Below the pieces are notes generated by a model. That model saw nothing but the letters and a program-made list of their open reading frames with translations, ran no database searches and was not told the origin of the DNA. 35,328 nucleotides of DNA from Acidimicrobiales bacterium (GTDB taxonomy: Bacteria; Actinomycetota; Actinomycetes; Mycobacteriales; QHCE01): assembly GCA_003243955.1 (NCBI GenBank), contig QHCE01000091.1:1-35328 (forward strand). Direction: 5' to 3'. Each line of letters begins with the position of its first letter. The first letter of the stretch is position 1. Shown one piece after another: positions 5,852-27,018 of the stretch. Made by a program: the position numbers and the translations under genes.

Positions 5852-8800
5852 ATGGCACCCATGATCGCAGCTCCACCGCACTATGCCTTGGCGCGTGGTC
5901 CCGTTCGCAAGAGCAGTGCTGCCACCCTTGCGTCAGACACTGAGCAGCGGGTTGTCGTCGAGCACACGTCTGGGCCCCTTTTAGTTCTTGCTGGCCCTGG
6001 AACAGGCAAGACGAGCACGTTGTTGGCTGCTGCCGCCGCTCGTATTAACGCCGGCGTGGATCCGTCACGGTTGCTGCTACTCACTTTTGGTCGAGCGGCG
6101 GCAGCTTCGCTGCGAGACCAGCTCACCGGTGCGGTCGACCGCGTGATTACCGAACCGCTCGCACGCACTTTTCACTCATACGCATTTGGTTTGTTACGAC
6201 AGCTCGCTGCACGCCGTGGCCAGCCCGCCCCGCGACTATTGGCCGGCCCGGAGCAAGATTTGCTGATTCGGGAACTGCTTGTCGGGGATGCGGCCGGTAG
6301 GGGAGTGCACTGGCCTGCTGCGCTGCGTGGTGCCCTGCGCACCCGCGGATTCGCTACAGCGCTGCGCGATGTGCTCTCGCGTGCCTATGAGCGCGGTATA
6401 GATCCGGTGCTACTCAACCGCTGGGGAATTGAGCAGAATCAGCCGCAGTGGCGGTCGGCCGCGGCGTTCATGCAGCAATACGCGGATGTCACCGAGCTAC
6501 GAGACGCGAGCCTAGCTGAAGGAGCCTCCTACGACCCAGCGGAGCTGATTCGTGCCGCTATCACCGCGCTGCGTCGCGATCGTGAGCTACTGGCAGCGCA
6601 GCGCAGCCAGTACAGCCATGTATTCGTCGATGAGTATCACGACTGTGATACAGCACAGGAGGAACTACTCCAGCTGCTGACCGGCGGCGGCAGATTTGTG
6701 GTGGTGTTTGCGGATCCAGACCAGTCCATTTATGGCTTTCGCGGCGCCGATTCCGACTGTGTCCGTCGTTTCCGGCAGCGATTCCCCGCCGCCAGCGGCG
6801 AGCCGGCGGCTGCGGTCACGCTGCGTACCTGCCATCGCAGTGCCCGCCTTTTAGTCGAGCACACACGCAACGTAGCGAGTCGGATCAAGGGTCCGGCTCG
6901 GCACCGAGAGCTGCGGGCGTTCGCCGAAATCGATCCCTCATCGCTTAGAGGCACCGACAAAGAGTCATCTGCCAAGGCCGCAGGAGTCGCCGCCTACGAA
7001 GGTAGGCAAGGCGACGAGAACACCGGCAGGGGCTTTTTGGCGGAGCCTCCAACGCCGGCTTGTGCTGTGCACGTGGCTAGATCGACCAGCCACGAAACGG
7101 CGTTGATTACGGCCGCGCTGCGGGAAGCTCACCTCATCGGCGGCGTTGCCTGGGAATCCATGGCGGTCATTGTGCGTTCAGCCTCCCGGTCGGTGGCTAC
7201 GCTGCGGCGAGGGATGCTGACCGCTGGCATACCAGTAGCCGTTGGTCGAGCTCAGATTCCGCTAGCTGAACAGCCAGCGGTGGCACCGTTGCTTGCGCTA
7301 CTACTAGTTGCGCTTCACCCTGCCGCACTTGATGACGCCACCGCGCAGGCGCTGCTGCTTTCCGAGCTGGGGGATGCTGATCCACCAGCCCTGCGCCGGT
7401 TGCGGCGAGCACTGCGGCGCAATGCGCAATCAGCCATGCCGCCAGATGTAGAACCGGCCAGCCGATCACTGTCCACAGGGGGCCTACTCGTCGCGGCGAT
7501 TGTGGATGGAAAGCTGCTAACCGGCATCGAGCCGCGGTTGACCGCCCCACTGCGTCGAATTCGAGCGCTGCTAGAGGCAGCTCAAACAGCGGCCACCGCA
7601 CCAGGTGCTACTGCCGAGACGCTGCTCTGGTCGGTGTGGAAGGCCAGCGGTTTGCCGCAGCGCTGGCAGCAACGCAGCGCTGCGGGGGCTGTGAGCTCGC
7701 TGGCTTCCGCGGCCGATCGGGATCTGGATGCGGTGATCGAGTTGTTTGAAGCGGCCGCCGCGTTCAGCGACCGTATGCCGGGTGCTCGGCTGGAGCTGTT
7801 TATTGAGCATGTACGAGCACAACAGGTTCCCGCGGACGTGTTCAGCAACGCGCGTGCCAGCGGCTCTGGTGTGCGGCTGTTGACCGCGCATGCCGCAAAG
7901 GGGCTGCAGTGGGACGTGGTCGTGGTCGCAGGAGTTCAGGAGGGTGTTTGGCCTAATCTGCGGCTGCGCGGAGGTGTGCTAGGCGCGGCGGACCTCGTCG
8001 AGCTCGCGGCCGGTCGGTCGCAGAGCGGCGCCGCGGCGCGTGCCGCGGCATACCAGCAGCTGCTGGATGAAGAACGCCGCCTGTTCTATGTTGCCGTGAC
8101 ACGGGCACGTTGCCAACTCGTGGTCACGGCAACGCAGGACGAGGAGAATGAACCTTCGCGGTTCCTAGAAGAACTGGACCCGCGCGAGGGCATGGCCGGT
8201 ACTCGGCGAGAACACAGCGACGCCCCAGCACTGCTGACACTTTCGGCGTTGGTGGCTGAGCTCCGTCGCGAAGTTACCCAGAACGTCGTGCCCGACGCCC
8301 AGTCCGCAGAAACACAGGAAGCTATTGTCGCGCGGCGGGCCGCGGCTGCCGCGGTGCTGGCGCAGCTGTCCGCTGCTGGTGTTCCGGGGGCGGCACCGTC
8401 TACGTGGTGGGGTTTGGCGCCGTTGTCAGACCCCGCGCCGCTCATCGAGCCAAGCGCAACGGTGCCGGTATCACCATCTGCTGTGGAGACGTTCTCTCAG
8501 TGCGGGCTCCGCTGGATGCTGGAGCGTCGAGCAGGAGGCAGCCGAACATCCGGCCCAGCACAGCTGATCGGGACAGCGGTGCATGAGGTCGCCGCGGCAG
8601 GATACAGCGCGACTGGGCCGCAGCTGCTTGCGCTACTGCGAGGCCGGCTGGCTGAGCTCGACCTGGGAACAGGCTGGTACGCCCGTAGACAGCGGGAACA
8701 GGCTGAACAGATGGTAGCCAAGCTCGCCCGCTGGCTGGATGAGAACCCGCGCCGTTTTGTAGCTGTTGAACAGGCTTTCGCGGTAGACGTTGGTCGTGCG

Positions 8801-9340
8801 CGGCTGCGCGGAAGGGTGGATCGCCTGGAAGCTGACGAGCAGGGCCGGCTGTTTGTGGTGGATTTTAAAACCGGCTCCTCAGCCCCCAGCAGTGCTGAGG
8901 TTGTTATCCACCCTCAGCTAGGGGCATATCAGCTCGCGGTGTCTGAAGGCGGCTTCGACGTCGCTGCCACAGTAACTGGCTCTATGGCCGGCTCGCAAGC
9001 TGCGCCGGGCATAGGCGAAGGCGACTGCCCGGGTGCGGGTGCCCCGCGCAAGCACAGCACCGGCAGGGGCTTTTTGGCGGAGCCAGTAACTGGCTCACGC
9101 CTGTGTGGTGGGGCAGCGTTAGTGCAGTTGGGTACAGCCAAGACCGCCCGAGAACAGCTCCAGCCTTCGCTAGATCAAGCTCCAAATCCCAAATGGCCTA
9201 TAGAGCTGATAGAACAGGTGGCGCACGGCATGGCTGACGCGGTGTTTACGGCGACGGCCAACTCGGGGTGCGATCGCTGCCCGGTACGTTCAGCGTGCCC
9301 CCTGCACACCGAGCAGACCACTACAGGGCGTTTTCCCTGA
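5852..9340 (+). CDS. adnA: AdnA-like subunit of the AdnAB helicase-nuclease, with two in-frame repeat insertions
   Basis: 1162 residues: an N-terminal UvrD-like motor and a C-terminal RecB-like nuclease. Motor motifs: AGPGTGKTS (Walker A, Lys about 53), LLLLTFGRAAA, VFVDEYHDCD (motif II with His where Gln is usual), ADPDQSIYGFRGAD, LLTAHAAKGLQWDVV and VAVTRAR. Nuclease elements: FSQCGLRW, GTAVHEVAA, GRVDRLEADEQGRLFVVDFKTGS, QLGAYQLAV, and a C-terminal CDRCPVRSACP. That gives four Cys for an Fe-S staple like those of AddB/AdnA. AdnAB resects double-strand breaks in mycobacteria; AdnA precedes AdnB there too. The protein is about 100 residues longer than its mycobacterial counterpart (about 1055). 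Two insertions, at residues about 366-400 and 1040-1082, account for most of that; both are palindromic repeat elements read in frame. The last codons and stop overlap another palindromic repeat. The ATG at 5852 lacks a strong ribosome-binding site, and the ATG at 5861 is an alternative. Confidence 0.9.
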   Translation: MAPMIAAPPHYALARGPVRKSSAATLASDTEQRVVVEHTSGPLLVLAGPGTGKTSTLLAAAAARINAGVDPSRLLLLTFGRAAAASLRDQLTGAVDRVITEPLARTFHSYAFGLLRQLAARRGQPAPRLLAGPEQDLLIRELLVGDAAGRGVHWPAALRGALRTRGFATALRDVLSRAYERGIDPVLLNRWGIEQNQPQWRSAAAFMQQYADVTELRDASLAEGASYDPAELIRAAITALRRDRELLAAQRSQYSHVFVDEYHDCDTAQEELLQLLTGGGRFVVVFADPDQSIYGFRGADSDCVRRFRQRFPAASGEPAAAVTLRTCHRSARLLVEHTRNVASRIKGPARHRELRAFAEIDPSSLRGTDKESSAKAAGVAAYEGRQGDENTGRGFLAEPPTPACAVHVARSTSHETALITAALREAHLIGGVAWESMAVIVRSASRSVATLRRGMLTAGIPVAVGRAQIPLAEQPAVAPLLALLLVALHPAALDDATAQALLLSELGDADPPALRRLRRALRRNAQSAMPPDVEPASRSLSTGGLLVAAIVDGKLLTGIEPRLTAPLRRIRALLEAAQTAATAPGATAETLLWSVWKASGLPQRWQQRSAAGAVSSLASAADRDLDAVIELFEAAAAFSDRMPGARLELFIEHVRAQQVPADVFSNARASGSGVRLLTAHAAKGLQWDVVVVAGVQEGVWPNLRLRGGVLGAADLVELAAGRSQSGAAARAAAYQQLLDEERRLFYVAVTRARCQLVVTATQDEENEPSRFLEELDPREGMAGTRREHSDAPALLTLSALVAELRREVTQNVVPDAQSAETQEAIVARRAAAAAVLAQLSAAGVPGAAPSTWWGLAPLSDPAPLIEPSATVPVSPSAVETFSQCGLRWMLERRAGGSRTSGPAQLIGTAVHEVAAAGYSATGPQLLALLRGRLAELDLGTGWYARRQREQAEQMVAKLARWLDENPRRFVAVEQAFAVDVGRARLRGRVDRLEADEQGRLFVVDFKTGSSAPSSAEVVIHPQLGAYQLAVSEGGFDVAATVTGSMAGSQAAPGIGEGDCPGAGAPRKHSTGRGFLAEPVTGSRLCGGAALVQLGTAKTAREQLQPSLDQAPNPKWPIELIEQVAHGMADAVFTATANSGCDRCPVRSACPLHTEQTTTGRFP
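6947..7050 (+). repeat. Palindromic element copy A, in frame inside adnA
   Basis: The outer arms are complementary. GAGGCACCGACAAAGAG near 6948-6964 pairs imperfectly with the sequence ending CTTTTTGGCGGAGCCTC at 7049. An inner hairpin GCCTAC-GAAG-GTAGGC lies near 6992-7007. The 67-bp core (6966-7032) matches the reverse complement of 26856-26922 at about 63 of 67 positions by hand alignment. The final 27 bp (7021-7047) are identical to 9058-9084 in copy B. In the adnA frame it encodes about 35 residues with no stop, ending NTGRGFLAEP, and falls in a linker between motor motifs. Confidence 0.82.
8970..9096 (+). repeat. Palindromic element copy B, in frame inside adnA, with 13-bp direct flanking repeats
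   Basis: CAGTAACTGGCTC occurs at 8970-8982 and again at 9084-9096, exactly 114 bp (38 codons) apart, so the insertion keeps the frame. Its right end (9058-9084) is identical over 27 bp to the right end of copy A and is read in the same frame as STGRGFLAEP. A shorter match, TAGGC(G)AAGGCGAC, lies at 9012-9025 against 7003-7015 of copy A. The rest has diverged or is a different internal segment. The right junction forms a 17-bp palindrome, GAGCCAGT-A-ACTGGCTC (9080-9096). It falls in the nuclease domain between the QLGAYQLAV motif and the C-terminal Cys cluster. Confidence 0.75.
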
Positions 9341-25757: not shown

Positions 25758-26839
25758 CCGGCGGCCAACGCAGGTCGCCATCGTCGGCTGATCCACTCAT
25801 CGAACCCGTGGCGCCTCCGCTACGAGTGTCGGTACTGGGGGCTGGATCGTGGGGTACCACGTTCGGCAAAGTACTCGTCGATGCTGGCTGTGATGTCCTG
25901 TTGTGGGCGCGCCGGCCCGAGATAGCACGCAGCATCGCCGCCACTGGTCGTAATCCGGATTACCTGCCCCACATCCGATTGCCCGTGGGGCTGCGTGCCA
26001 CTAGCGATTGCGCCCAGGCTATGGAACACGCCCGCGATCTGCTGGTGCTCGCGGTACCGTCACAGACTCTGCGCAGCAACATGGCGGAATGGGCACCAGC
26101 GGTAGACCCGGGCGCTGTTGTGGTCAGTTTAGCCAAGGGTATTGAGCTAGGCAGCGGCCTACGCATGAGCGAAGTTATCGTCGGAGTCTCCGGAATCGAC
26201 TTCCAGCGAGTGGCTGTGGTGAGTGGGCCCAACCTTGCCGAAGAAATTGCGCGAGAGCAACCTACAGCAACGGTGGTGGCATGTGAGGATTCAGCACGCG
26301 CTCAGCTAGTCCAGCGTGCCTGCACGACTAGATACTTACGCCCCTACACCAATCCCGACATCGTCGGATGCGAACTTGCTGGCGCGATGAAGAACGTCAT
26401 CGCGCTCGCCTGCGGAATTGTCTCGGGCATGAAGTTGGGAGACAACGCCACCGCGTCGGTGATCGCACGCGGTTTGGCGGAGATCACCCGTCTTGGTCAC
26501 TTGCTGGGTGCTGACCCGATGACGTTTGCGGGCTTGGCTGGGCTGGGTGATGTGGTGGCGACGTGCTATTCGCGGCTGTCGCGCAACCGCGGGTTCGGGG
26601 AGCTGCTGGGACGTGGCCAGAGCATGAGCCAAGCGCAGCTGCGTAACCCTCAAGTGGTGGAAGGGGTGACGTCTTCGCTTGCCGTGCGGGATTTGGCGCT
26701 GCGGCTGGGAGTAGATATGCCGCTGACCGATCAAATCGTGAAGATCTGCCACGAAGACGCTACCCCAGCGCAGGCGTTCGATGAGCTCATGGCTCGTAAG
26801 CCGCAGGCAGAGTTCGGCATTGTTTCGATGCAGTACTAA
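25754..26839 (+). CDS. gpsA: NAD(P)-dependent glycerol-3-phosphate dehydrogenase
   Basis: 361 residues. After a 22-residue polar leader comes the Rossmann motif VSVLGAGSWGTTFGKVL (GxGxxG type). VVSLAKGIE, SGPNLAEEIAREQPTA, ELAGAMKNVIALACGIVSGM (catalytic Lys of the KN motif) and TFAGLAGLGDVVATCYSRLSRNRGFG then follow, all in GpsA order. It reduces dihydroxyacetone phosphate to sn-glycerol 3-phosphate for phospholipid synthesis. The start codon overlaps the upstream plsC stop by 4 bp (ATGA), so the two are coupled. The stop codon is the first bases of a palindromic element (26838-26940) that separates it from ddl. The leader before the Rossmann fold is somewhat long, and a later start is possible. 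Confidence 0.96.
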   Translation: MTGGQRRSPSSADPLIEPVAPPLRVSVLGAGSWGTTFGKVLVDAGCDVLLWARRPEIARSIAATGRNPDYLPHIRLPVGLRATSDCAQAMEHARDLLVLAVPSQTLRSNMAEWAPAVDPGAVVVSLAKGIELGSGLRMSEVIVGVSGIDFQRVAVVSGPNLAEEIAREQPTATVVACEDSARAQLVQRACTTRYLRPYTNPDIVGCELAGAMKNVIALACGIVSGMKLGDNATASVIARGLAEITRLGHLLGADPMTFAGLAGLGDVVATCYSRLSRNRGFGELLGRGQSMSQAQLRNPQVVEGVTSSLAVRDLALRLGVDMPLTDQIVKICHEDATPAQAFDELMARKPQAEFGIVSMQY

Positions 26840-26940
26840 ACGCCCGCCAATAGGTCCCCTGCCAGCGTTCTCGTCACCTTGCCTACCTTCGTAGGCGGCG
26901 GCTCCTGCGGCCTTGGCAGATGCACTATTGGTGGGCGTTT
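26838..26940 (-). repeat. Palindromic element copy C, between gpsA and ddl
   Basis: The terminal inverted repeats are AAACGCCCGCCAATAG (26838-26853) and the complement of AAACGCCCACCAATAG (26925-26940), 15 of 16 matching. Between them, read on the minus strand, is a 67-bp core (26856-26922) differing from copy A in adnA at about 4 positions, with an inner hairpin GCCTAC-GAAG-GTAGGC. The left terminus overlaps the gpsA stop codon. As RNA it would fold into one long branched hairpin, so it may also affect gpsA-ddl expression. Confidence 0.82.
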
Positions 26941-27018
26941 TAAAGGTGGCAGTTTCGGTTTGAGTAAGCGCAGCTACCGGTCATGCGGGCGTGAAGTATT
27001 ACGGGTAGGGTCGGCGCC

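Follow-up and report, generated by a model that had tools for sequence, protein, structure and literature searches.

What is a palindromic segment doing within the open reading frame of adnA, how did it get there, and is the interior of a gene its usual place? We addressed these questions for the window, that is, the whole stretch of 35,328 nucleotides analyzed here, and for the genome to which it belongs. A sequence-only reading had proposed an in-frame element of the kind known as Rickettsia palindromic elements (RPEs). The segment at 6947-7050 proved to be one copy of a folded repeat with more than 60 copies genome-wide. A dispersed palindrome, in frame in adnA and in other genes and missing from AdnA orthologues, was supported; the emphasis on coding sequence was incomplete, as coding copies are a minority and the main site is the stop codon.

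Copies, anatomy and fold of the repeat

Repeat finding in the window paired 6966-7032 with 26856-26922 (67 nt, 94% complementary), which reproduced the match of about 94% that had been described between a 67-bp core in adnA and the opposite strand of the gpsA-ddl spacer. When other genomic copies were compared with the window by BLASTN, exactly three sites were matched (6943-7056, 8979-9091 and 26836-26947; Table 1). The second of these, another in-frame element in adnA, had been overlooked in the earlier reading. In the whole genome (2.42 Mb, 91 contigs), BLASTN gave 43-46 matches to the element, with a best non-self E-value of about 1e-40, and a covariance model gave 62 matches; a core found nowhere else, which had been considered as an outcome, did not occur.

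Table 1. Positions of the three repeat copies in the window and of the genes that they touch
Feature	Position	Strand	Remarks
adnA, 1162 aa	5852..9340	+	inserts at about residues 362-402 and 1038-1085, missing from orthologues
Copy 1, inside adnA	6944..7056	+	113 nt at 91% identity to a copy elsewhere in the genome
Copy 1, outer stem arms	~6946-6964 and 7034-7052	+	
Copy 1, conserved multi-branched core	6970-7030	+	CTGCCAAGGCCGCAGG...GGCAG
Copy 2, inside adnA	8979..9091	+	long subfamily, left side truncated
gpsA	25808..26839	+	stop codon coincides with the edge of copy 3
Copy 3, gpsA-ddl spacer	26836..26947	-	core antisense to gpsA

Copy 1 scored 117.5 bits with the covariance model, and copy 2 was 93% identical over 101 nt to a long-subfamily copy at G000:C49:21379-21559 in the same genome; an exact 27-nt repeat is common to both adnA copies. 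A 13-bp sequence, CAGTAACTGGCTC, is repeated directly on both sides of copy 2 (8970-8982 and 9086-9098), which makes it a candidate target duplication; most other copies have no counterpart of it. The right (3') edge of copy 3 overlies the TAA stop codon of gpsA (26837-26839), whose product has its natural length, with NCBIfam NF000942 matched up to profile position 332 of 334.

The anatomy of the element was parsed from 42 copies. In its own genome it measures about 105-180 nt, and each copy forms a long stem in which outer arms that are copy-specific, yet pair with each other, surround a conserved core. Cores at unrelated loci were about 90-97% identical. The standard core of 61 nt (CTGCC AA GGCCGCAGGAGCC GCC GCCTAC-GAAG-GTAGGC AA GGCGACGAGAACGCC GGCAG) is predicted to fold as a short stem closing three hairpins, with AA bulges. 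The second and third hairpins are extended in longer subfamilies, and for some copies the favored prediction is a rod, with GTCGCC paired to GGCGAC. For the RNA of 6940-7060 the predicted folding energy was -58.6 kcal/mol (z = -4.9; no shuffle equalled it).

Several measures indicated that the pairing is preserved while the sequence varies. First, the outer arms matched at 74% of positions within a copy versus 51% between copies, and the duplex energy was -29.9 kcal/mol for own arms versus -18.5 kcal/mol for swapped arms. Second, among 22 aligned standard copies, 21 of 38 pairs showed two-sided changes (17 of them in the outer stem), and none of 500 shuffles of this alignment equalled any covariation measure. 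Finally, a second genome, G156, showed two-sided changes in 13 of 29 pairs (28 copies). Such compensatory changes could come from selection or from hairpin-templated repair, either of which requires that the hairpin forms.

Some variants of the architecture were also observed. At L039:1473-1756, about 20 bp separate two diverged copies in a head-to-head arrangement. Three copies of the own genome (L040, L042 and L124; C38:52109, C66:47697 and C7:8596) have an extra left-arm module in common (GAGCCGATTGTCGC.GATCT.ACTCGATC), a pattern pointing to a putative exchange of modules between elements. An extra hairpin, ATGCCC-GTCA-GGGCAT, is present in units of the genome G274 (L078, L097-L107), some 15 nt from one of their ends. 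It recalls the hairpins near the ends of single-strand transposons, but a Y1 transposase was not found in that genome.

Known identities were considered as well. ARAGORN called no tRNA at 43 loci, so that a tRNA or tRNA-derived repeat was rejected, and no Rfam 15 family matched either the window (gathering threshold) or four carrier loci (E <= 1), so that a known RNA family was rejected as well.

Placement at stop codons and within proteins

Placement was counted on predicted genes from a codon-usage gene caller, with a stop codon required within 12 nt of the element edge. In the own genome, 26 copies abutted a stop, 20 of which were antisense only, five lay between convergent genes and one was sense only; the antisense bias of 20:1 gave a sign-test value of 2e-5. 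Random placement in window spacers would put about 4% (3.9%) at a stop, with a tail probability of 7e-17 that is approximate and depends on predicted genes. The same placement and orientation were found in at least three families, one of them outside the order. All 20 nearby stops in G156 were antisense, mostly within 3 nt. In G274, where the unit is about 235 nt long, all stops were antisense at a constant 32-35 nt past the model edge, which is where the longer unit really ends. In family f28, which belongs to the class and lies outside the order, 24 of 27 copies had an antisense stop within 18 nt. Moreover, family models reached the natural C-termini of genes ending at the element (RpoA, TatD, PPOX, GpsA and SSADH), and therefore the element follows complete genes.

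Of 37 copies away from called stops in the own genome, 27 carried TTA, CTA or TCA on their right edge, compared with 28-30% of random windows, suggesting that a stop-like triplet belongs either to the target or to the end of the element itself. The few G156 copies away from genes lacked the triplet, which argues that the determinant there is the stop codon itself and not the bare triplet. As a rule, the element borders the 3' end of a gene, abutting the stop codon with a fixed orientation, and only exceptionally interrupts coding sequence.

The exceptions amounted to about seven of 63 copies (two in AdnA, and one each in NrdA, NadC, a MoeZ-like protein, RimI and an MFS exporter). We compared AdnA with orthologues across many genomes, and NrdA and NadC with solved structures. 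The adnA frame is open across copy 1 and reads LRGTDKESSAKAAGVAAYEGRQGDENTGRGFLAEPPT from residue 365. On either side of the insert, UvrD-type N-terminal, C-terminal motor and PD-(D/E)XK domains were recognized, in line with the earlier statement that the insertion lacks a stop and leaves the motor motifs intact. Alignments with AdnA orthologues broke at about residue 363 and resumed at about 404, and broke again at about 1041 and resumed at about 1085. AdnA of the family mate G001 showed the same breaks, with its two aligned pieces adjacent in the genome, and Mycobacterium smegmatis AdnA (7sjr) and a multiple alignment agreed that both inserts are missing; orthologues carrying the segment were thus not the outcome. 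NrdA contains a clean insert of 35 residues (237-271) between what are adjacent residues 239/240 of Pseudomonas aeruginosa NrdA (5im3). In NadC the element is read in the opposite orientation, immediately upstream of the DVTT motif. It lies in the linker between the ThiF and rhodanese domains in the MoeZ-like protein, and near the N-terminus in RimI and the MFS exporter. The latter two cases are weaker, because the real start codon could lie further in.

All four sense-oriented standard copies (AdnA copy 1, NrdA, RimI and MFS) use the same reading frame. In a typical copy three of the six frames are open, and therefore in-frame passage is not improbable. The in-frame copies are predicted to be hydrophilic linkers, with SAKAAGAAAYEGRQGDENAGR in the common frame. 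In G156, frames are apparently read through the element at the C-terminal ends of an ABC permease (L133) and a MATE transporter (L140), with no stop ahead of it.

Distribution and possible origins

Relatives were found by the first covariance model in three of 399 genomes of the order. Within the family of G156, a model derived from that genome detected the element in 23 of 201 genomes, representing 14 of 44 genera; across the class it did so in 16 of 395 genomes. The own copies were most similar to those of family f28 (7 of 12 genomes; best E-value 6.5e-26), and G001, the only family mate of the own genome, had no copy. Copies of other lineages have the motifs GCAAGRC ... CGCCGYNNRC ... GYNNRCAAG ... 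AACGC in common. Such patchiness, with cores that are almost the same in hosts far apart, suggests that the element either spread horizontally or was lost many times. Tandem arrays occur in several genomes, with a period of about 196-215 bp in G156 or shorter (L129:1001-1714, corresponding to G156:C1:132336-133049; L106:1501-2038; contigs C2, C23 and C127 of G438; G596:C142:17228-17511).

Our analysis established dispersal to unrelated genes, coding inserts that are absent from orthologues, structure-preserving variation, oriented placement at stop codons and patchy class-wide spread. We favor, with a probability of roughly 0.55, a non-autonomous repeat that inserts strand-specifically at stop-like triplets and is mostly retained behind genes and sometimes inside them. 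Copying to new sites would be strand-specific and driven by a factor acting in trans, probably on a folded single strand, and the right end of the element would be joined to a triplet that reads as a stop (TAG, TAA or TGA) along the strand of the gene receiving it. Most surviving copies would form the start of a 3' untranslated region, because real stop codons would be the best tolerated sites. A minority would have landed within genes, where stop-free in-frame copies would survive and be translated, as in AdnA, NrdA, RimI and the MFS transporter. More tentatively, and by analogy with E. coli repetitive extragenic palindromes (REPs), the hairpin at the 3' end may stabilize the mRNA or affect translation termination. 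Against the favored reading, no mobilizing enzyme was found, Y1/RAYT proteins were absent, there was no general target duplication, and the G156 copies away from genes lacked the triplet. With regard to RAYT/IS200-type mobilization, the Y1 family PF01797 was absent from G000 (the own genome), G156, G274 and G001, whereas control genomes were positive, so that this route was rejected.

The orientation bias could equally arise from selection for transcript function. A less probable explanation, which we regard as tentative, is a functional, REP-like RNA element of 3' untranslated regions, in which the hairpin was selected for mRNA 3'-end protection, transcription termination or ribosome slowing, copies spread by their usefulness and coding copies are accidents. 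The precise oriented placement at natural stops in at least three families and the strong conservation of structure favor it, and in E. coli a large share of the REPs are found no more than 15 nt from a stop codon, where they cause ribosomes to stall (PMC12306157). However, the carriers in the order and the class are too few for a generally needed element, and coding insertions show arrival at new sites regardless of untranslated regions. Nor is the hairpin a canonical intrinsic terminator, since no U-tract follows it (27% T in the 15 nt past the element; TTTT in one of 27); a spacer scan called no terminator in the gpsA-ddl spacer. Thus, this explanation fits placement and structure equally well, and the coding copies and patchy distribution less well, than the favored repeat with strand-specific insertion. 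The two are compatible by analogy, as E. coli REPs are both dispersed by a transposase and active near stops (PMC12306157 for the latter).

It is improbable that the element is a miniature inverted-repeat transposable element (MITE) of a known insertion sequence, moved by the transposase of that sequence. Small size, palindromy, high copy number and lack of own coding capacity would suit a MITE, as would a few possible short flanking repeats (CCACCTA at the NadC copy and the 13 bp at adnA copy 2), but the ends are the most variable part of the element, whereas a transposase needs conserved ends, and the longest flanking direct repeats did not exceed the control (5.07 vs 4.92 nt). On these two grounds a classical MITE was rejected, and on the latter so was general target-site duplication. 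Furthermore, PF01797, the sole transposase family searched, was absent from all carriers tested, and no copy was found in the plasmids, phages or viral contigs searched, so that carriage by these was also rejected. Least probable are old, vertically inherited copies whose imperfect palindromes are perfected by hairpin template switching, with neither mobility nor function: such a mutation bias would give copy-specific yet self-complementary arms, but the cores are highly similar between unrelated loci, the family mate lacks copies, and the core most like the own one belongs to a family that lies outside the order.

A bolder extension of the favored repeat, which we consider possible but doubtful, is a class-wide, undescribed mobile hairpin of Actinomycetes that is aimed at stop codons, moves strand-specifically by non-Y1 recombination, and serves as a portable 3' end and an occasional source of protein segments. 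If the favored reading is true, one element would be the actinobacterial counterpart of both REPs and RPEs: structured DNA, scattered over the genome, that marks where genes end and has also entered central proteins such as ribonucleotide reductase. The two covariance models make it a concrete, searchable family in which to ask how palindromic repeats of bacteria can be mobile in the absence of a Y1 transposase, what causes their one-way orientation on stop codons, and how enzymes tolerate insertions of 35 residues.

Comparison with known systems

In the open-access literature we found papers on RPEs, REPs and stem-loop families, none of which describes the present element. RPEs are high-copy palindromic repeats of about 100-150 bp, some of which are in frame and translated, and many of which prefer one frame (PMC10969869). 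Like them, the present element has palindromic in-frame inserts in several unrelated protein genes whose orthologues lack them, a likeness in described properties. Unlike RPEs, nearly half of which are coding in R. conorii, its coding share is small, its main niche is the stop codon, and it has a fixed orientation, a multi-branched core and an actinobacterial host.

Integron attC sites are hairpins with bulged bases, conserved in structure and variable in sequence, that lie directly 3' of a gene in a fixed orientation. The present element resembles them in conserved structure, bulged bases, placement 3' of a gene and single orientation; however, attC sites have their conserved boxes at the base of the stem and occur in cassette arrays, whereas the copies described here are scattered and combine a variable base with a conserved core. 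Mycobacterial MIRUs are also repeats of actinobacteria that have inserted at stop codons or across them, and in this respect they are alike by description; to our knowledge, they are not known as long palindromes.

REPs are about 20-40 nt long; in many genomes they are tied to RAYT (Y1) transposases, and they are rarely found within coding sequence. As with the REPs and BIMEs of enterobacteria, dispersed palindromes are enriched directly after stop codons. The present element differs in its length (about 105-235 nt), its lack of a Y1 transposase, its strict orientation, the variable outer arms around a conserved core and the coding insertions. By the 3'-edge rule and the patchy spread in the class, it has more in common with REP-like elements of gene ends than with an RPE that prefers coding sequence.
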